Origin: Saccoglossus kowalevskii
Lineage: Eukaryota > Hemichordata > Enteropneusta > Harrimaniidae
Assembly (NCBI RefSeq): GCF_000003605.2
Contig: NW_003133378.1
Span: 3,937 to 28,598, forward strand
DNA length: 24,662 nucleotides
Direction of reading: 5' to 3'
Below are positions 3,028-24,662 of the stretch, in pieces. The notes under the pieces were generated by a model. That model saw only the letters and a program-made list of their open reading frames with translations. It had not been told where the DNA came from and ran no database searches. How positions within the stretch are numbered: position 1 is the first letter of the stretch; the number at the start of each line of letters is the position of its first letter. A program made the position numbers and the translations under genes.

Positions 3028-3606
3028 TCACCTTAGTACCTTGTTATCCTGAAAAACATTGAGATGCGCGAAAATTTAACTAAATTCCGCCTCAGTGACC
3101 ATAACTTGAAAATTGAGACTGGCAGACACAAAGGAATACCCCTTGCTAATAGATTATGCAACCTTTGTGATCAAAATGAAGTAGAAGATGAGTATCACCT
3201 CATGATGTCATGTAAAAGATATACCCCCGAAAGAAATGTCCTATTCAAAATGGCAAAAACCAAAATCCAAAACTTTAAAAATTTGCCACCAAAGACACAA
3301 TTCATAGCCTTGCTAAACAACAGTGGCCTAACACTCCCCGTAGCAGGGTACCTAAAGAAGTGTTTTGAAATAAGACAGCAACCCCAGTGACAACCTTCTT
3401 TCACTATTTAAGTTTTGCATTTTGTTTTCTATCTATCGTAGTATCATAATTTTATGCTTGCTATTCTCTGTAATGTATTAGCTTAGTTTGTTTTATTTTA
3501 TCTATTTACTTTTTTGGAACATTTTATTCCTTCTTAAACTTTTGTAACCATTGCCGATCCCTCCGGGGGATGTGTAAGCGTTAATAACATTATTATTATT
3601 ATTATT
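3028..3606 (+). mobile_element. Second 5'-truncated LINE, 3' end
   Basis: It has the same organisation as the copy at 1795-2291: a C-terminal ORF fragment, a 3' UTR, a GC-rich stem-loop (ATCCC/GGGAT near 3557-3570), then 'taataac' and an (ATT)n tail ending about 3606. The protein sequences are clearly related but much diverged, so the two are different subfamilies or old copies. The tail abuts the head of a HINE-A fragment at 3607. Confidence 0.8.
3037..3390 (+). pseudogene. LINE ORF2 C-terminal fragment with zinc knuckle
   Basis: The frame is open from 3037 (after a TAG at 3034), with its first ATG at 3064. Numbered from that ATG, it carries 'LTKFRLSDHNLKIETGRH' and then C32, C35, H45 and C50, the same C-x2-C-x9-H-x4-C spacing as the fragment at 1800. 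The preceding residues (YLVILKNIEMRE) fit the linker usually found before this motif in LINE ORF2. The polymerase and endonuclease domains are missing, so this is a dead 5'-truncated copy. Confidence 0.8.
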
Positions 3607-5131: not shown

Positions 5132-5549
5132 TGGATCATGTGCTGTTCAATAATCACTAGCCTTTATTTTAATGTACATAATTATGTGTTCATTGTAATA
5201 TTTGTATTCTAAAGTAGCCTTTGATATCATAAATGAAATGATTTCTTATTTCATGAAAACTATTTTTATGGTGTGGCCGAAACTATTATGTTTTTTATAA
5301 TCACTATGCATGTTATAAATTGACTGCAGTAATTTACCCACCTCATTACACACCTAGCAGTAGAAAACAATAGAATTCAGCCATATGAAACATGAATGTT
5401 TCTTATTTGCTAAACGTGTCAAATTTTCCTCACATTTGTTTATGCCAAATTTGTCACTAATGAAGCACATAGAAGAATGTTACTAAATACAATGCATGCT
5501 CAAATTTCATAAGACACTTATGATATATGTTAATAAATTACTAAAAAAA
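5132..5549. other. AT-rich intergenic, no gene
   Basis: Nothing recognisable before the satellite begins. Confidence 0.5.
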
Positions 5550-6453
5550 GAATACCAAAAAGTTTGCTCCCAGGCAGTAAGGGATCACATTGACTTCTGC
5601 TACTGTGTATGCATTGGCTGATACGATTGCCATACTGACTGTGTGCATACTTTGTAGTATAATTACTAGAATAAGAATACCAGAAAGTTTGCTCTCAGGC
5701 AGTATGGGATCACATTGACTTCTGCTACTGTAAGCATTGGCTGATATGAATGCCATACTGACTTTTTATATACTTTGTAGTATAATTACTAGAATAAGAA
5801 TAAGAATACCAGAAAGTTTGCTCTCAGGCAGTAAGGGATCACATTGACTTCTGCTACTGTAAGCATTGGCTGATATGAATGCCATACTGACTTTTTATAT
5901 ACTTTGTAGTATAATTACTAGAATAAGAATACCAGAAAGTTTGCTCTCAGGCAGTAAGGGATCACATTGACTTCTGCTACTGTATGCATTGGATTATATG
6001 AATGCCATACTGACTTTTTATATACTTTGTAGTATAATTACTAGAATAAGAATACCAGAAAGTTTGCTCTCAGGCAGTAAGGGATCACATTGACTTCTGC
6101 TACTGTATGCATTGGATTATATGAATGCCATACTGACTTTTTATATACTTTGTAGTATAATTACTAGAATAAGAATACCAGAAAGTTTGCTCTCAGGCAG
6201 TAAGGGATCACATTGACTTCTGCTACTGTATGCATTGGATTATATAATTGCCATACTGACTTTGTGCATACTTTGTAGTATAATTACTAGAATAAGAATA
6301 CCAGAAAGTTTGCTCTCAGGCAGTAAGGGATCACATTGACTTCTGCTACTGTATGCATTGGATTATATGATTGCCATACTGACTTTGTGCATACTTTGTA
6401 CTATAATTACTAGAATAAGAATACCAGAAAGTTTGCTCTCAGGCAGTAAGGGA
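5550..6453. repeat. 123-bp tandem satellite, about 7.2 copies
   Basis: Unit starts, marked by 'agtttgctc', fall at 5561, 5686, 5815, 5938, 6061, 6184, 6307 and 6430, giving spacings of 125, 129, 123, 123, 123, 123 and 123. The last unit stops after 'ggcagtaaggga'. Each unit carries 'cacattgacttctgctactg' and 'tactttgtagtataattac'. Units fall in similar neighbouring pairs. It lies about 0.9 kb upstream of the first recognised exon. A frame across it on the minus strand (5541-5756) is an artefact of the repeat. Confidence 0.95.
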
Positions 6454-6835
6454 TTCTTGTGCACCTCATAATATTATAGTGTTATAACAAACCTGGCTAT
6501 GAATTTAGATGAATAAAAATGGACTTGCTTAGACTAAAGAATATCACATGTGAATCTTGCCAAGGATTTATCAGTTTTTGGTTTGTAAGTTTTGTGATAA
6601 GCAAGAAGATCTCCTAAGAAGTGATCTTTTTCATTTCATGAGCATTTGAAAGCGATCCTGCAGTTTCAAATACTAGTAAAGAGTTTACAGTACCTGCTTT
6701 GTTAATAAACAAGGACAATACCAAAAATAATCTCAGATAAAACTAATCAGTTATTTCACAGACTCATTAGTATTTTCTAAAAAAGTCAATTTGTCTTACA
6801 ATTTCGTGATCATCTGGTAATTGGTGTGACTTTTT
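6454..6835. other. AT-rich intergenic, no gene
   Basis: No open frame or repeat recognised between the satellite and the HINE-B element. Confidence 0.5.
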
Positions 6836-7295
6836 AGCTCCGCTGTCGACTTTGTTGAGCGAAGCTTATCATATGAGTGATTGTCCATCAGCGTCCATGT
6901 CAACTTTTTACTTTTTTGACTTCTTTTTGAAAACTACAAGCCAGAATGCCTTGGGTAGAATTAATTCTCTAATTTTGGTGAATATTTTTGTTAAAAACTT
7001 AAAAAAGTGATATTTTTGACTTCTTGTTAAAAACCGCATGTCCGATAGCTTTGATATTACATATATAGGTACAACATGTGGACCTCTCTCAGATTTGTTC
7101 ATTTTGTGATGATAGCTTTAATTCTCTAATTTTGCTGAATATTTTTGTCATTTTTGGTAAAAAGTGATATTTTCCACTTATTGTTGAAAACAGCAAGTCT
7201 GATTGCTTTGATACTATACATATTGTTCATGTTGTATTGATATCTTCTGTTCTTAATTTGGAATGTTCACAGCAGAGCTATCTCAGCTGCTTGTT
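6836..7295 (+). mobile_element. HINE-B family repeat (short, complete-looking)
   Basis: The head AGCTCCGCTGT (6836-6846) follows a T run. An inverted near-copy AGCGAAGCT lies at 6858-6866. Two core units of about 150-170 bp share 'taattctctaattttg', 'gtgatatttt', 'gacttcttgtt' and 'ctttgatactat'. The 3' subterminal ACAGCAGAGCT (7269-7279) is the reverse complement of the head at 10 of 11 positions, and it is followed by CTTGTT. This is the layout of Helentron-derived non-autonomous elements. It ends about 65 bp before the first gene exon. Confidence 0.5.
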
Positions 7296-7360
7296 CAATT
7301 AACATGATAACTTTGTTCACAGATCACACCACTAACAATTGATTGTCCTTTAATTACCAG

Positions 7361-7394
7361 ATGTTCAATAAATGAAAAATGTTGTAAATTTAGA
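7361..7394 (+). promoter_or_regulatory. 5' leader of the ORP1-like mRNA with short upstream ORFs
   Basis: A good 3' splice site (gattgtcctttaattaccag) ends at 7360, so a non-coding exon probably lies further upstream. If so, the leader holds ATGs at 7361 (4 codons), 7372 (8 codons, stop TGA 7396-7398 overlapping the main start as ATGA) and 7379 (2 codons). The main ATG at 7395 has A at -3. The promoter itself was not located. Confidence 0.45.
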
Positions 7395-7512
7395 ATGAAT
7401 GAATTGGAAGAACGACTACTATATAGCGCACGTCATGGTGAACACGAGGTTGTCAAAGAATTATTAGATCTGCAGAAAGATGGCTCCATAGACCTGAATA
7501 TCAATTGTAAAG
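7395..7512 (+). CDS. OSBPL1A: ORP1-like, coding exon 1 (residues 1-39)
   Basis: It encodes MNELEERLLYSARHGEHEVV, a helical lead-in matching the ORP1L N-terminus, and ends INCKG, a block also found in vertebrate ORP1L. The start was chosen because protein similarity begins there and -3 is A. The exon ends AAAG|GTAATA with one base of a split glycine codon (phase 1). The acceptor before it is at 7360. Confidence 0.88.
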
Positions 7513-10500
7513 GTAATATTGGTTTCTGACTTCCATCTTGTCTGTTTAAGTGGTTTTCTTTCCCAAATTTGGCGTATAGAGTAGCGTCTTCAAAAAGTAC
7601 AGAATGATCCTTTTTGATGTACCTGTACCACATTGTGACAGCAAATGATAAATAATCCTCATCCGACAAACAATTAGGTTTGAACCTTTAAAAAAATAAA
7701 TATGTTTCTAGGGGTAAATATTTTGGCCAGGCGTTTTGTACATTAATGGGTATAGTCAGCAATCAATAAACATGGTCACAAGACCAGTAATTTGCATATC
7801 CAATTGATACAGGGGATTTCATTGAGATTTGTTACATAAATTATTCATTTAGCAATACATGTTTCATACAGACAGATTCGTAGCCATCTTGCTTTTGGCC
7901 ATATTACCGGTACTTTAACTTCAGGCATGAATAATATCTTCTCTAATTGCATTGGGGACTGTGCCCATAACAATGAGTAGTTATTAATATTGTATGACAT
8001 AGGTTTTGTCATGTCAATAACTTTTTGGAAATGTCATTTTATGCTAAAATAAATAAGATCAATATATTTGCTTTATTAATAGCTCATGTTCGTTAGTATA
8101 GAATACAGAATACAATACAATTTTTACAATGTATGAATGTGTACAAAAATGTAATATAAAGCCTGTTTTCGATGTAGTGTTTGCGCACAGGAACACAGAA
8201 ACCGATGTCATGCGTTACATATAAAACAAAGAAATTGCAACTTCACACAGACATGTCCATGTGTGTCCTCACAGCTGATCTGCAAATGTTCATTTGAGAT
8301 AACCTCAATATATGTATGATTTACAGTAATTAAATACCCATCTTTGTAATTAAATTCATACTCTTCTTAACTTTATTAGGTCGGTCTAAAGCTAACAATG
8401 GCTGGAGTGCATTGCATCTTTCGTGTTACTTCGGACATAAAGAAGTTGTACATTTACTGTTGAAGTATGGTGTTGATGTTAATATCGTCAATCAGGTCGG
8501 CGACACACCATTACACCGAGCAGCGTATACAGGTAGAACGGTGAGTTCAAAATTAAGGGTTGATAAAAAAAAGGGTTCCTAAGTTAGGTTATGGTGACAT
8601 TGAACATGAATGATATAATTTATAAAACTTATTTAAGTTGATTATGATTTCTTCACACTTGTGTAAAAAATCTCTAAGCTTGTATTGTGTGGTTTTAGAA
8701 TGTCGTATTATGTTAGACTCAATCCTGTAAATTTCAAGTGGCACAAACTTACAAAATGTGCAAAGCCTTGATGATTGTACCAAATTTCAGAAGCTCCAAA
8801 TATAAAGAATACTAAATAAAAAAAAATTTAATATTCGAACAGGAATTGGTTCTGTTGTTAATCCAGTATAATGCAGACGTGGCTGTAATTAATGGCGAAG
8901 GACACACGCCGAAAAATGTTACACATGTTGCTGAAGTCAAAAGATTATTGGAAGGTATGTAATAGGTATAAAGTTCATAGAATGGTCATATAGTTATTGT
9001 AATGATTGTCATACATGGAACATGTGGTTCCTGTTGATCCTACAGTAAAATTTGATTTTATATTCTAAGTCTCGTCACATATGCAAAATATTTCTACTGT
9101 GCAGTCTGAACTATTTGTTTGTAATCACAACGCATGTTAACAACTTGACCAAAGCGTGATACTATCCACTGGTGGACAACTGTATTTTGTGTAGTTGGCA
9201 TGTTCTAGGTGCCATTCCACATTCAAGTGAGAGCAAGTAATCAAACAGAAACGACAGTTTGCAGAAGTTGAAAAATCACACAAGTATACCCAAACGGCAT
9301 ATTGTGATTTAACAGTTTTTGACTCCTGTGTGCGAAGCACAAAAAGGGAGTTTTTGCAGTTAATAGTGTGTCTGTCTGTGTGTCTGTGTGTGTGTGTCTG
9401 TTCCACTGCTATCTCAAGAACCATACATTGGTTTTTGATGAAACTTGGTGCATAGATGCTCTGGGCCAATGCGTAGATTTGATTTGGTTTTGGTAAAAAT
9501 CCATGCATATTAATTACCTAATTTGCATGATAATTAACTGACTTTTTAGCTGTTCCATGACTGTTCCACTGATATCTAAAGAGCTACTCATTGGATTTTG
9601 ATGAAACTTAGCACATAGATGCTCCAAACTAATGTGCAGATTTGATTAGTTTTGGGTAAAAATCTGTGCAATATTAATTACCTAATTTGCATAATGATTA
9701 ATCAATTTTTGGCTTTTCCACTGATATCTCAAGTACTAATCATCACATTTCAATAAAACTTGGTACATAGATATCATAGGACACTGCGCAGACCTGATAG
9801 CTGTTAGGGTAATATTTAATTACCTAATTTGCATAATTAATTAATTTTCAGCTTTTGATATTTCAAGTAGTAATCATCACATTTCAATAAAACTTGATAC
9901 ATAGATGTCATAGGACACTGCACAGACCTGATAGTTTTTAGTGTAATATCAATACATATTAATTACCTAATTTGTATAATTAATTTTCAGCTTTTGATAT
10001 TTCAAGTAGTATTCATCACATATCAATGAAACTTGGTACATAGATGTCATAGGACACTGCACAGACCTGATAGTTTTTAGGGTAATATCAGTACATATTA
10101 ATTACCTAATTTGCATAATTAATTTTCAGCTTTTGATATTTCAAGAATTAATCGTCACATTTCAATGAAACTTGGTACATACATGTAGTTACTTAAGGAC
10201 TGTGCAGAGATCTGATTAATTTTGGGGTAAATATTTGTGCATATTACCTAATTTGCATAATTAGTTATTTTTTCCCATGTATGTTCCACTGATATATAAA
10301 GAACCACTAATTGGATTTTAATTATTCATCATCACATTTCAATGAACCTAGGACTAAGCAGAGACCCAAGTAGTTTTTGGTAAATATTTATGCTTATTAA
10401 TCACCTAATAAAAATAATTAACACTGATATCTCAATTACTGATCATCACATTTGAATAAAATAGACAGGCCCTATTAATTTTGGGTTGAAATTTGTTCAT

Positions 10501-13500
10501 ATTAATTCTCTAATAATAATTCATAGTCTTTTTGTTCTAATCACGTACATTTCAATGAAACTTGGTACATAGATATTACATTATGCAGGCCTTATTAGTT
10601 TTACACTCAAATCTGTTTATATCAGTTACGTGATTTACATATTTATTTATTAATTGGTTTTCAGCTATTCCATCAATATCTCAAGTACAAGTAATTTTTA
10701 ATTAATTTTTAATGCGTCTTCAATACTCTCAGCACACGAGAGTTCTTTCTAAGCTTTCTTTGATGAAAATTGTTACAAAAATAAGTTACTGAATATCATA
10801 GGCAGTCATGACCAACAAAATTGCATGGCTAGTTTTAAATTAATTATATATCATGATTATCCCATCAACTGTGAAGTTGACCATAATTGTTTGTGCGTGT
10901 CTGTGTTTTGTTCGCAGTATGCTTTCAGTATACTCATCTAGTGGGGTATCTAGTTCCAAAAGAATTCTGCAGGGAAATCATCTGTATTCATTAAATCGTC
11001 TCGCATACCATAAAAACATGTATGATAAAGAGGTAATTACACATGTACATGACAACCCTATGATATCATCTGTTTTACTCATTATCTTTGTATTTTGACT
11101 CAAAGTACATATCACAGGGATTGTTATGTAATGTGGCAGAATTTTGAGTTGCCTGACTACCATATATGCAATTTAGTATCAGTTTCATTTTAAGAGGAAT
11201 TTGTGTACACCCAGTCATCAAGAATATGCAGTTCAAATCAGGCTGATTACTTTCTCAGATTAGCATATAAGAATAATAAAGACAACATTGAAGAGTAGAT
11301 TCTTATGTCTTCTGCGTCAACTTTTCCTATGATGCAATGCTTGAAGCACAAAATTCATAAAATGGTCTTAGCATATAAAAATAATAAATGCAATATTGAA
11401 AGGATACTAAGACAAATCTATTGGGCATCAAGAATATTGCCTTCAATGTCTCCATGAAGTTCAATCCAGGATTTTGAATCCTGTGTCTTCTGCGTCAACT
11501 TTTCTTGAAGGCCAAAATTCATAAAATGGTCTTAACATATAAAATAATAAATGTAATATTGGAATAACACCAATGCAGACCTATTGGGCATCAATAATAT
11601 TGCCATCAATGTCTCCATGAAGTTCAAGCCCTAGAATTTTAATTCTGTGTCTTTTGTATCAACTTTTTCCATGATGCACTGCTTGAAATGGAGGTGAAAT
11701 TAAAAGTCATAGACATTTGTGATCTTTAAAAATTACTCTTAAATTGTTGTCAGTGTTATAACTTATAATAGCAGCAGATTTCAACATTCAATTTGTTTAA
11801 CAAACTACCTTATAACAATAACATGAATTTTAACTTTATTAAAAAATTAGTAAATTAATTTGTTATTTAGCTGCTGAAAAATCTCAACAAAGAAAGACAG
11901 AAGAGGAATTACTCGATGCTGCAAGAGATGGTGACATTAATACTTTGACAGTATTGGTAAGTCATCAGCCATGATGGATTTATGCTAATTATTGGGATTG
12001 GTAAGTTACCAACCAAGATGCATCTTGTGTAACAAGTGGTTTCATAATACAACAGAGTGTAAGAACACTTGTGTCTAAGCTGATTAATGGCGCCCTCAAT
12101 GTTAACTCGGTGATTATCTTTTGTTTTTAGTCCAATGGTCTTGTAAACTTTCCTACAATTTCTATATCCTAATTACATGGATTTGTATTATTCGGAGTAC
12201 AAAGAAAAAATACTTTTAGCTCATAAAATGTTTTACTGTTCCATTTAAAATAATAAGATGTTTACATTTGTGTCATTCTTAAAATAAATAAATGCTGGCT
12301 TTTAAAATAACTTCCCACAAAAGTTATTCATTTGATTAGGCATTTATTCATGCCAAAAAGATTTTTTGTTTGAGCACTTGTCAAAAATATTTTTTACTGT
12401 AACATACACTGCCATATAGAACATCTGTACAATATGTAGCACACCAAAAAGTTGAAGTACAAATATGAAATGAAATCATATGCCTGTGATCAAATAAAAA
12501 ATCGCTATGATTAATAGACTATTTTTAGTTCACTGCCAGATCCCACATTGTCTGTGAAATCAAACAGAACAAACAAAGGTCATTGTGTTGGTGTGAAAGT
12601 GTTTTGTGGGGGGATCGTTGTAGTCAGTCAACACTGATTTGTGAGATCATATATCACAACCATGAAGTCATAAGGAACTGGATACAAATTAACCATTTGA
12701 GATACTCGCAGCAGGATATCTTTATTACTGGAACAGTACTACATAGAGTTTACAACTAGCTAAGAACAAAGTTACAGGAACAGCAATAAGCATAGTATAC
12801 TGACACTTGCTTGGGTCCAGTCTAACACAAGGTGCTAAAAGGGGCTTATTTAAGGCATGGTCAGTAATCCAAAAGATAAACTTTCCTAATCCTGTACTAG
12901 GACAATGATTGGCTGAAAGATAATCCCCTTAACTGACCAATAATGTAATCATCAATTAAAAATGGCATACATTTACATGTTGAAATGCACATAACTTCTA
13001 ACTAACATTACAATGCTTAATCAAGTAAATTCATTAAGAAAGACAGTAATTCGACAATACATATAAAACAAGAATGAATAAAATCAAGCAAGAATAAGTA
13101 TCATTTCTAGACATTTAAATGCTACAAACTAACACAAACCCTAAAACATGTCAGAGTAAGCCAGCGATATGTTTTTTGGGTATTTCCACAATTAATAATG
13201 TGCTTTACACTTTTGCTGGAGTAATTCTGCCATAATTATTTCTGGAAGCTTGCTGTTTTGATATTGAACTATAAATAGAAGAAATTGAAGTTCAAAATCA
13301 AATCATTTAATTTTTGTGGCAGACTTTTGATCAATGTGAACGGTAAATCATCTGTTGCAGATTTTTATATTTTTACTTCTTTCATTAAAAAGCATTTTGA
13401 ATTCAAATCCATAAATTTCATTTGTCCTGACGCATCAGCTTGTTGAGATTATAGGTGCTGAAATCAAAACAAACACCACTGGCAATGTTCCTAGGAATAT

Positions 13501-16500
13501 TGTATTGTTGCAAAGATATTGATATGGAGATAGCGGTTTATTTTGTTCCCATTGTAACATGTGTTGTATATGTCGCATGGGACCATGTGGCACTTTAATT
13601 TTTAGTTTGGTTCTGAACCACCGATATAATGCTCTCGTTTTCAGTTAAAAAGTAGCTGCCCTCCTAACATACAGTGTACTGATGTAATGGGAAATGGACC
13701 CTTGCATTGTGCTGCTTACAGAGGACACAACGAGGTAGCCGTGGTGCTATTGCAGAATGGCATTGATCCAATGCTGCAAAATAACAATGGACAGACTGCA
13801 CTGGACCTTGCAAGATCTCAGAGCATGAGACAGTTGTTGGATGTGAAACCTATTAAGGCAATACAGAAAGATGTTGTGCGCTTTGAAGGCGACTTACTAA
13901 AGAGATCACGGCTATTTGGATGGAGACAGTACTGGGTGGTATTGGACAAAGGTGTATTGTCTTTCTTTTACAAGAGGTATAGTATCCAAAATCTTATTTT
14001 TTTGTATCCTTAAGGTAGCGGAATAGTTTTTTGGGCACTTTTCACATTTTATTTTGAAAATCACAAGCATAGCTCCATAAGGCATGCCACATACATTAGT
14101 GTATTTATTTTATTGAAAAAATAATATCTTGTACAAGTAAACTGGTTTTTTTCTTGTGTGCAAACAAATACCCAAGTTTTTTGTTTATCCATTGTGCACC
14201 CCATGAGTGCTTCTCATTAATATTCATGCCTAACAAACATAACTGAACTGGGGCTAAGCTATTTACAAACAACTGATAAGATATCTGTTTGTAGTTTACA
14301 CACAGCTGATAATACAGTCATGCAATACAGTTTCATGACATTTTTTTATTATTGTGTAATAGATCGGTTATTGCGATACAAGGTCATATGTGAAAAAATT
14401 TGGATCATCAAACAATTTGTTGAGATACCAGTAAATGTGTTATTACCCTCTGCAGAGTTAATACATGGAACTTATGTAGAAAAAATAAAACATGGCCCAT
14501 TTTAATTACCGATTGTGATTTTTGAAACTCAAGATAATGAAACATTGTGCCTGGAGTTACATTTAAAAACAAATAATTGCAGTGCAGACCTATTTGTAAA
14601 GATACGACAGTTTCAGTAGTTCACTCCATGCTAATACATAGGTGATAGAACCTATTCTCATGTGAAAACTCCAATTTGATCCCACCACCATTCAGGATAC
14701 TGTAAACCATTGTATTGATCAACCATAACAGGGGTTTTTCTAGGAAAAAAATCCAAGAAGGAGCACTGCAATTTAGCGACGCCACCAAGTGGGGGAGATA
14801 CGGTTCTCACTCCCTGGAGCATTCTATGGCTTCCTTGGGGCCAAAATTACTATCAGACAGATCACAGTTGAAGACTGTTGCCACATGTGATACCTGGTAA
14901 TCAGAATTTTATGGTTGCCAGAGGATCTGCTCCCTAGGGTGGGGGCGCATGACCATATCACGAGGGCGCTGTGCCCCTGTTCCCTTGTTTAAAACAATCC
15001 CTTCATAATGTACTGACATAAGTGACAGAGATGTGTCTATGGTCAAATTACCATAAGTTATTTTTTAATGATGCATTACCATATTTTCTGTATTAGTAGC
15101 TCACTCACTTTATACGTAAATGACAGAGGTGTGTTAATGGTCAAATTAAGTCATATTTTGATGATGCATTACAGTATTTACTGTATTTAGTAGCACATGT
15201 GCTTGCGTAAATGTCTGTGGTAACAATAAGTCATATTTAAATGATATGCATTAAACGCAATTTTTGTTTTTATGTGCTTATTATATATTATATTATAGTA
15301 TGTTATTTTTCATGTGGCAATAAATTCTTCTTCAAATTAGCCATTGAACATTTTACATGACACACAGATCAATTCAATCATGTTTCCATAGAAACGGGCA
15401 TTAAGAGTCCATGCTTTTAATTGTCTTTCACAACCTGTTGCACAGTGGGACAATATTAATCTGTAAAATACAGCAGCAAACAGGTAAATTAAATCTATCT
15501 CTGGTGTCAATACATATTTAATTTGTCTTTCACAGAGCTGATTCTACCTCAGGAGTTAAACGACAAGGATTTCAATATTTAGCCTTAGGAACTGTCATTG
15601 TAAGTATTTAAGTGTTTGAGTGTTGGGTAGTTATTGTCTCCAGTGCTGGTGTTAGCAACAATAAAAGGCGTAAGACTGATGAAATAATTTGGTGCGAGTA
15701 TGTGAATTGAATTTTTTTTGAATTAATGGGAATAATCGAACCTTTAATTTTTTTACTTCATATTTTTTTTTGAAACAAAACTTAACAAAACCTTAACCTT
15801 AACAAAACTAGTGGTTTAAAGTCATCACATTTTTTACATGACACATGTCAATAAGATTCAGTTAAAATTCATCCCAGCTGACCCGTTGGACATCAATGTC
15901 AACTTTTGTTACCTTTCAATAAATATAACCCTAATAATTTCCATATTTGTAAACCCCTCTCAACACTTATGTTTTGGGCTTAATTTGTCTATCTGACATC
16001 ATTACTTGGACATGCCTAGACTGATTTTATGCAAAGTTGATCTGAAGTCAAGACATAATGATAACATTGAGCACATTGATTTCCCTTTTGTTTTTGTTGA
16101 TTTCCTACCCATGGTTATTCATGATTTATTACCAAAAGCAACATTTGAACATGTTTCAGAGGCATACCTTGGCCAATATTATATATGAGCTCCACTGTCA
16201 TCAAAAGGAGGTATTTATATAGGTAACTGTCTGTCATTGTCTGACATCAGTCATTCATCAACAATTGCATTTTCAACTTGAAAACTACTGCTTTAAGTAG
16301 TTCTTTGTCAGATTTGTTGATATCTTTAATTACTTGTTTTTATAAAATATTTTTTTTTCATTTTGGGTAAAAAATGCTTTTTTTGACTTCTTTGTGAAAA
16401 TTGTGAAAACACTACTCACCATGGCATATATCTCATCGTACAGAATACTATCAACTTTGTTTTGAAGGAGAAACTCTACAAAGACACTGGATCCCTTTTG

Positions 16501-19500
16501 ACCATCGGGTCACTTATTTAAACTTGGCATTGACTTCCTGAATGATTGATTGATGTACATCAGTTTGTTTTATGATTTGATTTAACATGGTTGAATGGAA
16601 ATTTTGTTTAAATCTGGTACAAACCTAAGACATATAATGGTTTCTTAATCTCTCCGATTATTTTAGGTTTTGATGATATTAACTAACTGTCGGCCATTTT
16701 GTTTTATTTTTTAATTGTTCACTTGACCAAAAAGGATTGTCGTAACGGGTTTCATTGCAATACCAATTTTGTTGGTGCGGATGCCATGATATCCCATGGT
16801 ATCTTTACCTCTTTTGTGTTGTCAAATGTAAGTGTTGCCAAATCCAGTACACTACACTGCTCGGTTTAAGTGCGTATTTATTTGTCTTTGCAGCCCAAAC
16901 CAGATAATGAGTACATATTCAGTATAAGATATTCTGATCACACTTTACATAACTGGATGGTTGGTCATGCTGATTCTTCACAAATAAGTAGACAGGTTAG
17001 TAATATATATGAAGTGATAATAAAAATTACATCATTGTTTTGTTTTTTTTCAATTTTATTTTCACCCCAAAATATCAGCAACCATTTGATTACATGGAGT
17101 GTGTTAAATTCCTCTGGAAGGTGTCATGAGCAATAATTAAATAATCTATAATGTCTATGTTATGTGCAATTTGCATTTCTTTTTTTGTTCGCTATTGAAA
17201 TTTAAATCCTAAAGGTTATTACTTCTTCCAAAAGGTTAATATGTTTTTATTTGTCTGTCATCAGGATAAGTCATAATGTTATTGGCACATATTTATAAAA
17301 AGGGGTTGTTCTTAACACATCATATGCTGTGAGCTTCCTCCATGAACAGCCAATATGAATGATATATACCGGTAATAGCATCACTAGGCGATGTGTTAAT
17401 ACAAGGATAAATTGATTTGGATACCAGTTACCATGGTAACAGCAAATTTGGGAATGATATCTACATTGATAAGTCATAATGTCATTGACAAATTTGCATG
17501 GAATTGTTGGAATGAGGGGTACCCTTGATAAAAGGATCATTTAGATTTTGGAATGGATTTTGATCTGGTTACTATAAGAGCACATACTTACAAATGCTGA
17601 GATGTACCAGTAAAGAATACTTTAAATTTGCTGCTGTGGTGACAGTTTGCACTCTCCAAGTATTTGTTTTCGTATTTAGACTTGTAGGATTAGGATTAGA
17701 AGCATACCGAAGTTAAATTCAAAGTCAAATCACCTATCACACAATAAACCTACATATTTAAAAAAAAAAAAAAATGTTGTATGTAATCAATGGGAAATTG
17801 CATCCATTTTGTCTAAATAAAAACCTGAGTGTCAGTAATTTTCTCAAGATTTTGTCTTCACCAAGTGCCATCAAATCCTCAAAATGTGAAAATTCCTTGC
17901 AGCAAAAATTACATAGTTTACAGTATCTGCATCCCTGCTAAAACACCATGACAGAAGGTTTGATATTGTGAGAATCTGATTAATTGAAGAAGAAAAAACA
18001 AAGAAACTCTTTCTCAAAGATTCAGAAATAACAATGACGATATATTGATTCCTTTCAGAAATGGATTAATGCAATTGAAAGCCATATTGAGTACAGTAAT
18101 CACTATACAACACAGTCCTATATGGAGGATGAGGAAGACATTGAAGATGATTTAGTGCCTTTAGGATCAATGCAAGATGCTTTGCAGGTACTTACCTTAT
18201 ACATGAAAAATATTTGAAATAGAATGGATACAAAATAGATTTTCAAAATAAGAATGGATTTAACTATAGAAATAGTTAATGCTTTAGAAATACAACGATT
18301 TAGATACAGAATGATTCAAAAATACAATGGTATAGATACAGAATGGTTTAGGAATACAATGGTTTAGATACAGAATGTTTTAGGAATACAATGGTTTAGG
18401 AATACAATGGTTTAGATACAGAATGATTTAGGAATACAGTGGTTTAGATACAGAATGGTTTAGGAATACAATGGTTTAGATACAGAATGATTTAGGAATA
18501 CAATGGTTTAGATACAGAATGATTAAAAAATATAATGGTATAGATACAGAATGTTTTAGGAATACAATGGTTTAGATACAGAATGGTTTAGGAATACAAT
18601 GATTTCGATACAGAATGATTCAAAAATACAATGGTATAGATACAGAATGGTTTAGGAATACAATGATTTAGAAACAGAATGGTTTAGGAATACAATGGTT
18701 TAGATACAGAATGATTCAAAAATACAATGGTTTAGATACAGAATGGTTTAGGAATACAACGATTTAGATACAGAATGGTTTAGGAATACAACGATTTAGA
18801 TACAGAATGATTCAAAAATACAATGGTATAGATACAGAATGGTTTAGGAATACAATGGTATAGATACAGAATGGTTTAGGAATACAATGGTATAGATACA
18901 GAATAGTTTAGGAATACAATGGTATAGATACAGAATGGTTTAGGAATACAATGGTATAGATACAGAATGGTTTAGGAATACAATGGTATAGATACAGAAT
19001 AGTTTAGGAATACAATGGTATAGATACAGAATGGTTTAGGAATACAATGGTTTAGATACAGAATGATTTAGGAATACAATGGTATAGATACAGAATGGTT
19101 TAGGAATACAATGGTATAGATACAGAATGGTTTAGGAATACAATGGTATAGATACAGAATGGTTTAGGAATACAATGGTTTAAATACAGAATGGTTTAGG
19201 AATACAATGATTTAGATACAGAATCAAAAATACAATGGTATAGATACAGAATGGTTTAGGAATACAATGGTTTAGATACAGAATGGTTTAGGAATACAAT
19301 GGTTTAGATACAGAATGGTTTAGGAATACAACGATTTAGATACAGAATGATTCAAAAATACAATGGTATAGATACAGAATGGTTTAGGAATACAATGGTT
19401 TAGGAATACAATGGTTTAGATACAGAATGATTCAAAAATACAATGGTTTAGATACAGAATGATTTAGGAATACAATGGTACAGATACAGAATGGTTTAAG

Positions 19501-20004
19501 AATACAATGGTTTAGATACAGAATGATTTAGGAATACAATGGTACAGATACAGAATGGTTTAAGAATACAATGGTTTAGATACAGAATGGTTTAGGAATA
19601 CAATGGTTTAGATACAGAATGATTTAAGAATACAATGGTTTAGATACAGAATGGTTTAGAAATACAATGGTTTAGATACAGAATGATTTAGAAATACAAT
19701 GGTTTAGATACAGAATGATTTAGAAATGCAGTGGTTTAGTGCTATAGAATAGTTTGGGGTAGAATGGATTAGAATTCTGATTTGCTTGTAATCTATTTGT
19801 CATTAATACCATCAATAACAGATGGATTTACAATCATTTATAGTGCTAATAATGTTCTGGTATTTCTCCAGAGTGTAGAATAATCTATAAACATATGTAA
19901 TTTACAGAATGCCAAAGCACATCAACAAGTACTAGAAAGACAAGTAGATGGACTTACATCTTTGTTAAATAATCTTGTAGAAGAAAAGAATGCAGTGAAA
20001 CAAG
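7395..20004 (+). CDS. OSBPL1A: ORP1-like oxysterol-binding protein-related protein, N-terminal part (9 exons, 3' incomplete)
   Basis: Joining nine exons gives 400 codons plus one base, with GT-AG introns and matching phases throughout. Three ankyrin repeats (about 47-76, 80-109 and 175-204) come first, then a PH domain (about 238-335), an acidic stretch (about 348-356) and a predicted coiled coil (about 365-400). This order is the long form of vertebrate OSBPL1A (ORP1L). In that family the ankyrin repeats bind Rab7 on late endosomes, the PH domain binds phosphoinositides, a FFAT motif binds ER VAP proteins and the ORD exchanges sterol. FFAT and ORD must lie beyond the window: the human protein is about 950 residues. 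The family call is strong; orthology is inferred from the diagnostic domain order and blocks such as GDTPLHRAAYTGR and FGWRQYWVVLDKGVLS. Confidence 0.92.
7513..8379 (+). other. Intron 1 (867 bp)
   Basis: GT-AG intron with acceptor ctttattag at 8379. No recognised repeat. Its first half is overlapped by a minus-strand open frame (7687 down to 7433) preceded by a T-rich tract, of unknown significance. Confidence 0.7.
8380..8540 (+). CDS. OSBPL1A: ORP1-like, coding exon 2 (residues 40-93, ankyrin repeats 1-2)
   Basis: It encodes GRSKANNGWSALHLSCYFGH, then a second repeat start GDTPLHRAAYTGRT. These are textbook ankyrin helices (TPLHxAA, GH/GR turn), closely matching ORP1L. The donor is AACG|GTGAGT, phase 0. 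In the mammalian protein these repeats contribute to Rab7 binding. Confidence 0.93.
8843..8954 (+). CDS. OSBPL1A: ORP1-like, coding exon 3 (residues 94-130)
   Basis: It completes ankyrin repeat 2 (ELVLLLIQYNADVAVINGEG) and continues into the inter-repeat helix (HTPKNVTHVAEVKRLLE). The acceptor is ttcgaacag at 8842 and the donor GAAG|GTATGT, phase 1. The intron before it (8541-8842) is only 302 bp and holds nothing recognisable. Confidence 0.92.
9316..10760 (+). mobile_element. HINE-C family repeat with degenerate tandem core
   Basis: The head GACTCCTGTGTGCG (9321-9334) follows TTTTT. It is folded back by TGTGC-gaa-GCACA (9329-9341) and GGAGT (9347-9351). A GTCTG/TG microsatellite (about 9365-9402) comes next. 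Then about nine degenerate core units of 133-163 bp are marked by 'aaacttggtacatagat' at 9441, 9604, 9757, 9890, 10029, 10168 and 10558, with decayed ones between the last two. Subterminal GCACACGAGAGTT (10732-10744) approximates the reverse complement of the head. The architecture matches Helentron-derived elements (DINE-1, pearl); no coding capacity is seen. Confidence 0.55.
9365..9402. repeat. GTCTG/TG microsatellite inside HINE-C
   Basis: Impure run of gtgt, gtct and tgtg units. In DINE-1-like elements a GTCY microsatellite occupies a comparable place. Confidence 0.85.
11215..11690. repeat. Degenerate tandem repeat, about 2.7 copies of 165-177 bp
   Basis: The phrase 'gtcttctgcgtcaactttt' recurs at 11307, 11484 and (diverged) 11649. 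'aaaattcataaaatggtctta' and 'attgggcatcaa(g/t)aatattgcc' each occur twice at matching offsets. Confidence 0.8.
11871..11956 (+). CDS. OSBPL1A: ORP1-like, coding exon 4 (residues 131-159)
   Basis: It encodes AAEKSQQRKTEEELLDAARD and continues GDINTLTVL, matching the charged helix between ankyrin repeats 2 and 3 of ORP1L (the TQQRKLEELLLAAAREG region in human). The acceptor is tgttatttag at 11870 and the donor ATTG|GTAAGT, phase 0. Confidence 0.92.
12513..13356 (+). mobile_element. Decayed MITE-1, copy 3, interrupted by an insertion
   Basis: The left part (aatagactatttttagttcactgc to about 12645) and right part (about 13156-13356, e.g. 'taataatgtgct', 'aagttcaaaatcaaatc', 'tttttgtggcagac', 'cggtaaatcatct') align with the two good MITE-1 copies but with heavy change. 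Many CpG sites of the good copies read TG or CA here. About 510 bp of unrelated sequence sits in the middle. Confidence 0.65.
12648..13155 (-). mobile_element. Possible solo LTR inserted in MITE-1 copy 3
   Basis: Read on the minus strand, it starts near TGTTTTAGGG and has a CCAAT-like box (agccaatcattg), a TATA-like TTAAATAAG, then AATAAAG about 130 bases downstream, and ends near ...CTCACA. This order resembles an LTR. Boundaries are approximate and no clear target duplication was established. No gag/pol sequence is present. Confidence 0.35.
13645..13976 (+). CDS. OSBPL1A: ORP1-like, coding exon 5 (residues 160-269; ankyrin 3 and start of PH)
   Basis: The longest exon. Ankyrin repeat 3 reads GNGPLHCAAYRGHNEVAVVL and on to DPMLQNNNGQTALDLA. 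After a linker, the PH domain starts VRFEGDLLKRS, then FGWRQYWVVLDKGVLSFFYK, with the W and the beta1-beta2 pattern typical of OSBP-family PH domains. The acceptor is ctcgttttcag at 13644 and the donor AGAG|GTATAG, phase 2. Reading on past the donor soon meets a stop at about 14011, supporting the splice. Confidence 0.95.
14729..14979 (-). mobile_element. hAT-like MITE (MITE-2), copy 2, inverted
   Basis: On the + strand it begins CAGGGGTTTTTCTAGG and ends GGGCGCTGTGCCCCTG. Its reverse complement matches the copy at 4861-5131 at both ends and in the GCGCCC-rich left region. The middle is diverged. It is 251 bp and non-coding. Confidence 0.6.
15019..15253. repeat. Degenerate tandem repeat, three units of about 70-100 bp
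   Basis: 'taa(g/a)tgacagag(a/g)tgtgt(c/t)', 'atggtcaaatta', 'gatgcattac' and 'gtatt(a/t)' recur in order twice, and a shortened third time ending 'atgatatgcattaaa'. Confidence 0.75.
15536..15599 (+). CDS. OSBPL1A: ORP1-like, coding exon 6 (residues 270-291, PH middle)
   Basis: Short exon encoding the end of split Arg270, then ADSTSGVKRQGFQYLALGTV I. The RQG..YL pattern matches the human RQGCKHLTQAVCTV strand of the PH domain. The acceptor is tctttcacag at 15535 and the donor CATT|GTAAGT, phase 0. Small and diverged, but the frame and PH alignment fix it. Confidence 0.88.
15600..16893 (+). other. Intron 6 (1294 bp) with HINE fragments
   Basis: At about 16186-16440 a HINE-B-like head appears ('agctccactgtcatc', then 'gacttctttgtgaaaa'). 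At about 16480-16760 there are HINE-A core phrases ('ttatgatttgatttaacatgg', 'tcggccattttgttt'). The first 580 bases hold nothing recognised. Confidence 0.5.
16186..16440 (+). mobile_element. HINE-B fragment
   Basis: It starts AGCTCCACTGTC, one base different from the HINE-B head, and shares 'tttttgacttctttgtgaaaa' with the core of 6836-7295. The 3' end was not found. Confidence 0.4.
16894..16995 (+). CDS. OSBPL1A: ORP1-like, coding exon 7 (residues 292-325, PH C-terminal strands)
   Basis: It encodes PKPDNEYIFSIRYSDHTLHN and on to DSSQISRQ, aligning with the human STDSCLFFIKCFDDTIHGFR segment of the PH domain. The acceptor is tgtctttgcag at 16893 and the donor ACAG|GTTAGT, phase 0. Without splicing, the frame would run on into intron sequence to 17136. 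Confidence 0.9.
16996..18058 (+). other. Intron 7 (1063 bp)
   Basis: GT-AG intron. A phrase 'gataagtcataatgt(t/c)attg' occurs twice, at about 17265 and 17468. A perfect 14-base palindrome lies at 17427-17440. A 14-A run follows 17760. Otherwise AT-rich. Confidence 0.7.
17427..17440. promoter_or_regulatory. Perfect RFX X-box-like palindrome
   Basis: GTTACCATGGTAAC fits the X-box consensus for RFX transcription factors (GTNRCC-N(0-3)-RGYAAC), both half sites perfect. It lies inside intron 7 of the gene. A single intronic match may be chance; function not shown. Confidence 0.3.
18059..18187 (+). CDS. OSBPL1A: ORP1-like, coding exon 8 (residues 326-368, PH end and acidic linker)
   Basis: KWINAIESHIEYSNHYT provides the C-terminal PH helix, with its conserved tryptophan (W327), matching the human DWLEAIEEHSAYSTHY. 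An acidic stretch MEDEEDIEDDL follows, then PLGSMQDALQ opening the coiled coil. The acceptor is gattcctttcag at 18058 and the donor GCAG|GTACTT, phase 0. Confidence 0.93.
18188..19907 (+). other. Intron 8 (1720 bp), almost entirely minisatellite
   Basis: The donor is followed within about 30 bases by pre-repeat sequence and then by the 16/32-bp array to about 19760. Only about 150 bases of unique sequence precede the true acceptor. Confidence 0.85.
18215..19760. repeat. 16/32-bp minisatellite, about 45 dimers
   Basis: Two related 16-mers alternate: TTTAGGAATACAATGG and TTTAGATACAGAATGG. Variants include TATAGATACAGAATGG and TTCAAAAATACAATGG. The dimer period is 32. Homogenised blocks exist: the TATAGATA form dominates about 18830-19190, while the TTTAGATA form dominates toward both ends. 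The edges (18215-18300 and 19720-19775) are decayed. The unit is not a multiple of 3 and has no coding meaning. Confidence 0.95.
19908..20004 (+). CDS. OSBPL1A: ORP1-like, coding exon 9 (residues 369-400, coiled coil)
   Basis: NAKAHQQVLERQVDGLTSLL, then NNLVEEKNAVKQ: a heptad-like helix corresponding to the human KAQSCQQRLDREISNFLKMI region. The acceptor is gtaatttacag at 19907 and the donor CAAG|GTAAGT, phase 1. The following exon was not found in the rest of the window. Confidence 0.88.
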
Positions 20005-20283
20005 GTAAGTTGAATGTGGCTGAGGCTATACAATAAAACTAGGGTTTAATATGTTCCAGTAACCAAACTTTGCTTAGATTTTACATGCCAACCCTATATT
20101 TTTTCATAACCAAACTAAAAAGTGATCAGGAGTGTTTTCATTACTTTCTGCAGCCTGAACAAGTTCTTAAGTCACCCATACATGTACATCATCTATTGTG
20201 ACAATTTTATTTGCAAAAAGTTCTAACCTGTTAACAGTATATAATTCCAACATTCCCAGCAGTAACTTGTTTACGGCAATTGC
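20005..20283 (+). other. Start of intron 9 (open to the window end)
   Basis: Begins GTAAGT. No exon with a phase-1 junction and ORP1-like sequence was seen from here to 24662, so the intron is at least 4658 bp. Nothing else recognised in this stretch. Confidence 0.7.
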
Positions 20284-20654
20284 AATAGACCATTTTCCGT
20301 TCACAGCGAGAATCACGCGTTATGCCTGAAATCGAACGTAAAAACAGGACAAACAAAGGTCATAGCGTCGTAGTCGCGTCAAACATCGCGTGGGATTCGA
20401 CAAACGCGAAAGTATTTCGGGGACATTCCCATGCTTAATATAATGTGCTGTCCACATTTGATGATAGGCAATTTCGATTAAGTAAGGGTATTCGAAAGCA
20501 ATATTCCTCTGTCGAAGATCAGCCGGTCAATGTAAGCTGCGAAATAAAGAAATTCTAGTTCAAAATCAAATCGTTCGATTTTTGCGGCAGACGTTCGACG
20601 CGCGTCTTTCATGCATCTCGCGAGATCTCGCAATTGTACGGAAAATCACCTATT
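20284..20654 (+). mobile_element. CpG-rich MITE-1, copy 2
   Basis: 371 bp, same orientation as 1036-1404, differing by about 11 substitutions plus a 2-bp insertion (taat to taatat). The same inverted ends are present, with TA at both edges. The high identity implies recent activity compared with copy 3 at 12513. An open frame starting at 20611 overlaps its end by chance. Confidence 0.75.
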
Positions 20655-20972
20655 TAATACAAATTTATACCTATATACCTTGTCACAGTGTAAGGCCTGC
20701 TTATTGCTATTGAGAGGGTCACTCACAGAACTCACACTGGACAGGGGGTTCTTTCACTGTCAGGACAATAGTACTGAAAATGAAATACACATACACCAAA
20801 TATCAATATCAAGCTCCTGGCTTTACTACCGCTCAAAATAATTACAAGAAACAAAGCACAGAAAAATACACTACAAAATGTTTGCGACTCTATGTGCCAT
20901 TTCGAATTGAGAATTGGTTAAAATACTTGCAATTGTGGTTCATAATTAAAAGACTAAATTGGTTTAGCTTTT
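20655..20972. other. Intron 9 sequence between repeats
   Basis: No exon or repeat recognised; overlapping short open frames here show no family resemblance. Confidence 0.45.
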
Positions 20973-21686
20973 AGTCCCTGTTCTGAATAAAGTCTAAAAT
21001 CAGGGAATATTAATTTGGGTTTCGTCTGTCTGCATGACCATTCGTCCTTGTATGTGTCTTGAGCAATTTCTCCAACATACTTTGATGATCTCATTCAAAC
21101 TTAACACACAGACCATGTATGATGACTTATATAAGCATAACAATTTTCATTACCATTTGGTAAGTATTGCTGACTAACAGCCATACTGGTCCTAAAAATT
21201 GCTAAATTCTGATACTTGAAAGTGTTCGAAGTGGCTGATGACAAGGCGATTTTTTTTAAACTTTGAATCATGATCATGCATATTGGGTTACAGGTGCATG
21301 TAATATTTTATTCATGATTCAAACAAAAATGGTAGATTGGCGGCCATTTTGTTTGCATTCATGCTGATATGTTGCCTGAGATTCAGTTGAAAGTTTGCAT
21401 ACAATTACTATAGTCATGCGATAATAATTGTAGATTGTGCTACTTTGTGTGACTTGATCAAATTTGTCGAATTGACGGTCATTTTGTCTAAAATCCTAAA
21501 ATTGCCATCTGTAAATGTGTCCAAATAGACTCTGCCTTTACAGTTCATTGCCAGCAATGACTGATAGCATCACAGCACTATTTAGTCAAATGTACACCCA
21601 CATTTTGATCACTGCTAGTGATGGAATTTGGCATTTAATATGGAATGGGGAACTGTGTATTGTCAAACGGGGACTTATAATTCGGT

Positions 21687-21719
21687 CTCCGTCCGTCCGT
21701 CCGTGCTCCGTCCGTCCGG
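21687..21719. repeat. CCGT tetranucleotide microsatellite
   Basis: Runs of ccgt broken once by 'gct'. Equivalent to GTCC units, the microsatellite type expected in HINE elements. Confidence 0.85.
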
Positions 21720-22344
21720 AGTCATATCTCAGAATCCCTTGGACCGATTCCGTTCATTCTTTGCATGTGCCTAGTACTTTATGTGGGACATATGCACATG
21801 CAGTGGTTTAGTGATTCGATTCAAAATGGCCGACTGGCAGCCATCTTGTTTTTTGAAAATGTTATTTTTTGGACATGCTTTGTCAGTTTTCATTCAAACC
21901 AGGTACATAGATTATACATATTAGGATACATGTCCATGACAATTTATTTCACAATTGGATCAAAGTAGACCGACTGGCAGCCATCTTGTTTTTTGAAAAT
22001 GTCATATTTTGGAAATGCTTTGTTAGTTTTCATTCAAATTTAGTACATAGATCATACATGTTAGGATACATGTCTCCGACTGTCCGTGAGTTCTTTAGTC
22101 TGTCCGTCCAATTTGTTTCAAAATCTGGTCAAGGATAGTCGATTGACAGCCATCTGACTTTTTGGCTTTCTACTATATTTCCACAATTTATGTACCATTT
22201 TCATTCGTATTTGGGACATACATATCAGTGTGTTTCATAATCAGATCAAAGATGGCCGAATAACGGCTGTTTTTATTTTTGGCCATATTACTACTACATG
22301 GAACACGTGTTTTGATGTAAGTTAACAATCTGTTGTATACGCTT

Positions 22345-22364
22345 CTTGAAACTCAAGTTTCAAG
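22345..22364. repeat. 9-bp hairpin with 2-base loop
   Basis: CTTGAAACT-CA-AGTTTCAAG, inside HINE-A shortly before its 3' subterminal repeat. Confidence 0.7.
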
Positions 22365-22460
22365 GACACGCTCGCGACAACCCTTCTGCTTTAATATGAC
22401 GAGCACAAAGAGAACTTTAAAAAAATTTAACAGGGACTGTGTCATTTTCAATGACTTGTT

Positions 22461-24190: not shown

Positions 24191-24662
24191 TTTTTAGTCC
24201 CTGTTTTGATAAAACCCATTTGAGATCTGTCTCTGTGTTCTGAGCCTTTTCTCAGACATGCTTTGATCGATCTCATTCAAACTTCACATAAGACAATGTT
24301 TAGCTACTTACATATGCATGCCAATTATTTTTGTCATTTATTCAAATATGGCTGACTGGCGGTCATTTTTGTCGTCAAATCTGCTCATTTTTCATAGTTA
24401 AATGGAACCTTTTTGAAGATGAACAGGGCAAAAATGCAACAAAATCAAACATTTTCCCCATTCCAGAACTACATCTCAGTCACGCATGGATGGATTTTGT
24501 TCAAACTTGTGACAGACATCAAGTCATATATTCTGGAAATTGAAAGTCACTCATTAACTGATTGATTTCAAACTTGGTCTATACAATGAACATCATAGAC
24601 CTGGAGACATGTAATTTTGTTTCCTGATTGGGCCATTCCAGTTTATATCTGCACTGTTGATG
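24191..24662 (+). mobile_element. HINE-A family repeat, 5' portion (runs off the window)
   Basis: TTTTT then AGTCCCTGTT (24196-24205), identical to the head at 20973. Shared sequence follows: 'cagacatgctttgat', 'ctcattcaaacttcacata', 'tggctgactggcggtcattttt' and 'cacgcatggatggattttgttca'. The last phrase also matches the repeat at 1-610. Confidence 0.55.

Follow-up and report, generated by a model that had tools for sequence, protein, structure and literature searches.

Three repeats, here called HINE-B, HINE-C and HINE-A, were found on the forward strand of a 24,662-bp stretch of the Saccoglossus kowalevskii genome (contig NW_003133378.1, positions 3,937–28,598; the whole stretch is referred to as the window and coordinates are those of the window). 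An initial annotation, made from the window alone, had assigned them to the elements derived from Helentrons (HINEs). Copies were searched for in 572 Mb of genome sequence (4830 contigs), and 40 first-look candidates were scored for each repeat (A, 40/2032; B, 40/3274; C, 40/2700), the copy numbers thus being lower bounds. Independent copies of all three families were shown to begin and stop at the end points listed below, where subTIR denotes a subterminal inverted repeat and IR the inverted copy of the head lying just inside it.

6836..7293, + strand: HINE-B copy, delimited by genome copies
6836..6846, + strand: HINE-B 5′ subTIR, AGCTCCGCTGT
6856..6866, − strand: HINE-B IR, 3/11 mismatched, with a better match in most family copies
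7269..7279, − strand: HINE-B 3′ subTIR, 1/11 mismatched
7284..7289, + strand: remnant CAGCTG of the HINE-B 3′ hairpin (family CAGCCnnnnGGCTG)
9321..10763, + strand: HINE-C copy, delimited by genome copies
9322..9333, + strand: HINE-C 5′ subTIR, ACTCCTGTGTGC (family ACTCCCGTGTGC)
9337..9351, − strand: HINE-C IR, GCACA...GGGAGT, closing the 5′ hairpin
9366..9401, + strand: HINE-C microsatellite of GTGTCTG type
9722..10186, + strand: HINE-C tandem units of 139 bp, 3.4 copies
10732..10743, − strand: HINE-C 3′ subTIR, GCACACGAGAGT (family GCACACGGGAGT)
20973..22458, + strand: HINE-A copy (composite), delimited by genome copies; the Ts from 22459 on are the T-run target
20973..21664, + strand: old A′ 5′ module, a divergent subfamily (genome search, 66 matches)
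20973..20982, + strand: HINE-A 5′ subTIR, AGTCCCTGTT
20999..21008, − strand: HINE-A IR, 2/10 mismatched
21665..22458, + strand: young, abundant A module with IR AACGGGGACT, GTCC microsatellite, internal repeats and 3′ end
21685..21719, + strand: HINE-A GTCC/GTCT microsatellite, read directly
21821..22074, + strand: HINE-A internal repeats, two units about 139 bp apart (115 bp aligned, 88.7% identical)
22429..22438, − strand: HINE-A 3′ subTIR, AACAGGGACT, exact complement of the head
22441..22455, + strand: HINE-A 3′ hairpin, GTCATT-TTC-AATGAC

The three heads differ and each follows a T run at, or within a few bases of, the position first proposed, and the genome copies confirmed this. The heads of A and B were placed correctly; that of C lies at 9321 instead of 9316, and its end near 10763 instead of 10760. 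Read from genome copies, family A starts with T(n)AGTCCCCGTT and family B with T(n)AGCTCCGCTGT, both ending in CTTG/TT (the slash marks the junction), and family C starts with T(n)GACTCCCGTGTGC and ends in CTTTGA/T. In the CTTGTT terminus proposed for A and B, the junction falls after CTTG. The end sequences typed from copies were TTAGTCCCCGTTCGGACGAAGTCCGAAAACGGGGACT (5′) and AACGGGGACTGTGTCATTTTCAATGACTTG/TT (3′) for A, TTTTTAGCTCCGCTGTCGACTTTGTCGAGCGGAGCT and ACAGCGGAGCTATCTCAGCCGAGAGGCTGCTTG/TT for B, and TTTTTGACTCCCGTGTGCGAAGCACAAAAAGGGAGTC and GCACACGGGAGTTCTTTCTAAGCTTTCTTTGA/T for C; no end sequence was common to the three. At least two Ts preceded the head in 14/15 matches of A (the exception being a partial match at a locus edge), in 26/29 of B (the exceptions being two T runs whose final base differs and one reverse reading of the palindrome) and at all 12 distinct 5′ ends of C. 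A T followed the last base in 16/16 3′ ends of A and 30/30 of B; for C this T is partly built in, since the 3′ search pattern itself held a T after GA. A larger element around HINE-B, suggested by an inverted pair at 6811–6822/7352–7363, was rejected because, apart from the window, 95 genome matches stop at the B ends and the pair is not shared by copies. At one locus (L037) B elements stand head to tail with a common T run, and at another (L041) several B 3′ ends follow in series.

HINE-A had been annotated as a single element. Its ends held, but the window copy joins two modules, an old one on the 5′ side and a young one on the 3′ side. An old subfamily is represented by the first 692 bases (66 genome matches with 40/443 candidates scored; 68–78% identity in the longer ones), and ten rows begin at window positions 20969–20973 (query 30–34), one of them on the strand opposite its neighbour. 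From 21665 onward the sequence matches a separate, young and abundant family (76–95%), beginning at that family's own inner inverted copy. Since both halves were joined only in the window copy among the places scored, the composite may represent a unique junction instead of an element that is mobile as a whole. Two further A-like HINEs reach the window edges. Positions 1–617 contain the 3′ end of one whose 5′ end lies left of the window, with the hairpin GTCATTGACAATGAC at 594–608, CTTG to 611 and then TT, and with two stretches about 313 bp apart that are 85% alike. Positions 24196–24662 contain the 5′ end of the other (T8 AGTCCCTGTT), which extends rightward out of the window.

The inverted copies of the head proposed just inside it and near the 3′ end were found in all three families, both when the coordinates were checked and in genome copies. 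SubTIRs of the 10–15 bp type were present throughout (10–12 bp here), with the complement of the head 20–22 bases inside the 3′ end; in the window C copy the distal inverted copy at 10731–10744 has 4/14 mismatches. A short IR was likewise present beside the 5′ subTIR in each family, the window copy of A being the weaker one, and head and inner copy together form one 5′ hairpin in A, B and C alike. Central repeats occur in all three and a microsatellite in A and C. The B arrays have core repeats at 157-bp spacing, and no microsatellite was seen in B. The GTCY-type microsatellite that had been proposed for A and C was confirmed in A (GTCC/GTCT), and that of C, consisting mainly of GTGTCTG/GTGT, fits this description only loosely.

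Folding of the family end sequences, compared with 1000 shuffles each, showed 5′ hairpins that were matched in stability by 0 (A), 0 (B) and 2 (C) shuffles. For head and inner copy of the A element in the window the figure was 80/1000, compared with 0/1000 for the family A sequence. Across copies, 242/255 cells of the 5′ hairpin were paired in A (17 copies), 320/338 in B (26 copies) and 126/144 in C (12 copies). A 3′ stem-loop, as in known Helentron-derived elements, was found in A and B, where 106/108 (18 copies) and 185/190 (38 copies) cells were paired, and in B the loop was far more variable than the stem; in the window copy of B half of the family hairpin is gone (CAGCTG compared with CAGCCnnnnGGCTG). 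Shuffles as stable as the 3′ hairpin stretch numbered 1 for A, 16 for B and 32 for C, and for the whole 3′ end 29, 87 and 688, respectively.

Empty sites were sought with joined-flank queries. Against the loci collected, 35 queries (A, 11; B, 24) were run and 34 tallied, one being too short; six spanned the junction. Three clean empty sites were each two Ts shorter than the filled site: an A inserted in a B (L010, with L044 as the empty site), a B inserted in an A-like repeat (L022, with its own neighbouring unit as the empty site) and a B inserted in a C (L046), for which the window's own C copy provides the empty site at 10330–10461. At L044, a B within a B, the empty site was shorter by two bases net and the sequence adjoining the junction has mismatches, so that it is less clean. 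A messy junction (L008) and a B–B tandem (L037) were not counted. The 11 C queries (10 distinct) gave no empty site among the loci collected. Searched against the genome, the 10 gave 40 rows, of which 20 spanned a junction, in every case that of copy L063; the junctions of the other nine were spanned by none. In the eight of these 20 empty copies that were read, the element and two bases were missing in 8/8; exactly two Ts were missing in one (L077), and seven showed a further T/C difference. As all 20 rows derive from L063, the evidence for C amounts to one insertion into a repeat with many empty copies. The evidence that the elements insert into T runs, with a gain of two bases but no longer target duplication, therefore consists of one insertion for A, two clean and one less clean for B, and one for C. 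On these few insertions, one junction rule is common to three families with unrelated ends.

Genes of the Helentron type were found in the genome by profile searches, with PF14214 at eight places (11/11 candidates scored) and PIF1 at 11 (23/23 scored). At one locus, L073, Rep, PIF1 and Exo_endo_phos frames lie in a row and the endonuclease frame adjoins the helicase frame; as assembled the locus is not one open frame, because the Rep and helicase frames, which overlap, are in different phases. Its Rep motif FYRVEFQQCGSPHTH has an S before PH, a residue reported by Thomas and Pritham as indicating a Helentron (PMC4067079). Used as a query, the L073 Rep frame gave 27 matches (35/35 scored), full length only at its own place, and most of the others were pieces with stops. 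A second open frame of 1446 aa (L074:4-4338, minus strand) matches Helitron_like_N and is unlike the L073 Rep; no PIF1 domain was detected in the frame scanned.

An autonomous Rep/helicase element with the same ends, for which the initial annotation had proposed a search, was not found at the Rep loci examined. The L073 flanks contained no A, B or C end pair, the 3′ side running into Ns, and a scan of these flanks for hairpin heads found none, the C head used as a control also being missed at that arm length. AGTCCCTGTT also occurs, without mismatch, upstream of the Rep frame of L073; with neither T run nor inner copy, it was taken as chance. On C3364 a B fragment lies about 1.1 kb downstream of a Rep fragment; the 3′ part of this B is truncated and the stretch examined yielded no B head, and the arrangement was attributed to chance nesting. 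The HINE-A that neighbours a Helentron fragment on C689 is a complete element of its own, and the pairing was rejected. Just upstream of the Helentron N-terminal fragments on C689 a palindrome, CTTAGCMCGKGCTAAG, is repeated (L076:2396-2438, L002:7-22, L023:267-282), which may mark a terminus of the family to which this Helentron belongs.

HINE-A, HINE-B and HINE-C are very probably three HINE families, non-autonomous and moved by a Helentron (with Rep, helicase and endonuclease, all of rolling-circle type). The ends defined by the copies coincide with the inverted motifs first proposed in the window, and paired hairpin arms, empty sites differing by two bases and Helentron-type Rep, PIF1 and endonuclease frames were all observed in this genome. 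A Helentron protein would nick at the T run and recognise the 5′ hairpin and subTIR, one strand would be copied by rolling circle, and the 3′ hairpin and subTIR may act as terminator. The common cis-signals would be a 5′ end in a T run, the first 10–12 bases of which (the subTIR) pair with the inner inverted copy, together with core repeats and a second, inverted subTIR towards the 3′ end; in A and B a small 3′ hairpin precedes CTTG/TT.

Several observations weigh against this assignment. A scan of the window alone for a T run with an inner and a distal inverted copy gave 12 sites, HINE-C not among them, and 20 shuffled windows (300-base blocks) gave 8.55 on average; at this tolerance the window by itself does not set the layout apart from chance, and genome copies were therefore required to settle it. 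Changes on both sides of a hairpin pair amount to three cells in all, so covariation is not claimed. An empty site was obtained for one of 10 insertions tested of C and from one of 11 queries of A. One C copy (L056) has a 7-bp direct repeat, TCTCATT, near both ends, which was taken as chance. Twelve Rep loci, most of them covered by 1.5 kb of flank only, yielded no end pair of A, B or C, and the L073 motif has C where the motif published in PMC4067079 has R. Finally, the 3′ hairpin of C is very weak (−0.7 kcal/mol). Together with the end CTTTGA/T instead of CTTG/TT and the single insertion behind the C empty site, this would fit A and B as HINEs and C as a different class of similar look. This seems unlikely, as C has the 5′ hairpin and a 12-base subTIR pair (ACTCCCGTGTGC/GCACACGGGAGT), is inserted in T runs and differs by two bases from its empty site.

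Alternatively, the two Ts by which filled and clean empty sites differ could represent a 2-bp TT target duplication, and the families would then be cut-and-paste elements resembling miniature inverted-repeat transposable elements (MITEs). MITEs of DDE transposases have terminal inverted repeats at both very ends; in all three families here the 3′ repeat is set back 20–22 bases from the end and the 5′ repeat takes part in a hairpin, with a further hairpin at the 3′ side of A and B. The elements are small, apparently non-coding and abundant, as MITEs would be, and such an origin was discussed for DINE-1 in the excerpts of PMC2374699, where the Ts are likewise ambiguous between part of the element and a TT duplication; on balance we regard it as very unlikely for A, B and C. 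T runs at the ends might also recall retroposed repeats resembling short interspersed elements, but they occur at both ends, many copies have sharp 5′ ends and the empty sites show no duplication beyond the Ts, which makes retroposition hardly credible.

The same two-T junction is seen with three unrelated heads, and Rep genes are few and mostly broken (eight PF14214 places compared with 2032, 3274 and 2700 first-look candidates of A, B and C). On these grounds one Helentron machinery might serve several families without common ends by reading shape and not letters, the shape being the 5′ hairpin in a T run, the inverted subTIR and, where present, the 3′ hairpin; we offer this as a speculative and rather doubtful idea. 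The question touched here is how a small number of Helentron genes can serve HINE ends that are unrelated.

Besides the HINEs, the window apparently contains exons of an ankyrin/PH gene, which we presume may be an OSBPL1A-like gene. A large minisatellite (18278–19739; periods of 16, 64 and 96 bp) apparently lies between exons, and a tandem array of a 123-bp unit (7.4 copies, 95% matches) is located at 5536–6454. Another repeat occurs twice, near identical by eye, at 1040–1400 and 20280–20660, with a more diverged relative, also by eye, at approximately 12520–13350. Two short open reading frames at 1800–2150 and 3064–3390 are alike by eye and may, we assume, resemble the tails of reverse transcriptases of long interspersed elements. 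Nothing in the plasmid collection matched HINE-A, and no Rfam match reached the gathering score.

A literature search with the end sequences gave no transposon work by title among the matches listed, and a search from 2020 on gave, by title among the matches listed, apparently no HINE study closer than PMC7492417 and PMC7992393. Comparison with known elements, based on excerpts of the papers cited, separates A, B and C from canonical Helitrons, described with 5′ TC, 3′ CTRR and insertion between A and T (PMC4067079); the ends found here are AG/GA...CTTG or CTTTGA in T runs. Helitron2 (PMC4067079) is similar in having asymmetric inverted repeats and palindromes at both ends, but its Rep/helicase is said there to be without an endonuclease, whereas L073 has an endonuclease frame. 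DINE-1 of Drosophila (PMC2374699) and HINE-Mo of a mite (PMC4067079) share subTIRs, a GTCY microsatellite, central repeats, a 3′ stem-loop (very weak in C) and TT insertion; their subTIRs are 12–15 bp compared with 10–12 bp here, and HINE-Mo is described without a separate IR. The inner inverted copy, which the initial annotation had suggested as an extra shared element, is shared by A, B and C, but it is not new: an IR beside the 5′ subTIR has been described for DINE-1 (PMC4067079, PMC2374699) and for the Cg_HINEs of Crassostrea gigas. The pearl elements of bivalves (named in PMC7492417), by description, likewise contain short arrays of central repeats of about 160 bp.

The Cg_HINEs (PMC7492417, excerpts) are 11 families, some unrelated to each other, and the oyster study likewise did not succeed in tying its HINEs to partners. 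They resemble A, B and C in a 5′ subTIR of normally 11–12 bp with a complementary IR, GTCY/GTCC microsatellites in several, central satellite-like repeats of about 140–180 bp, a 3′ subTIR with a palindrome, and T-rich insertion without duplication; the very weak 3′ palindrome of C is a difference. This comparison was made by description, and A, B or C may equal a known family. The finding is an ordinary one: as in the oyster, HINE families whose ends are unrelated coexist, and for three of them empty sites are now available. A, B and C belong to a known kind, whose layout, including the inner inverted copy, has already been described for DINE-1 and the Cg_HINEs.

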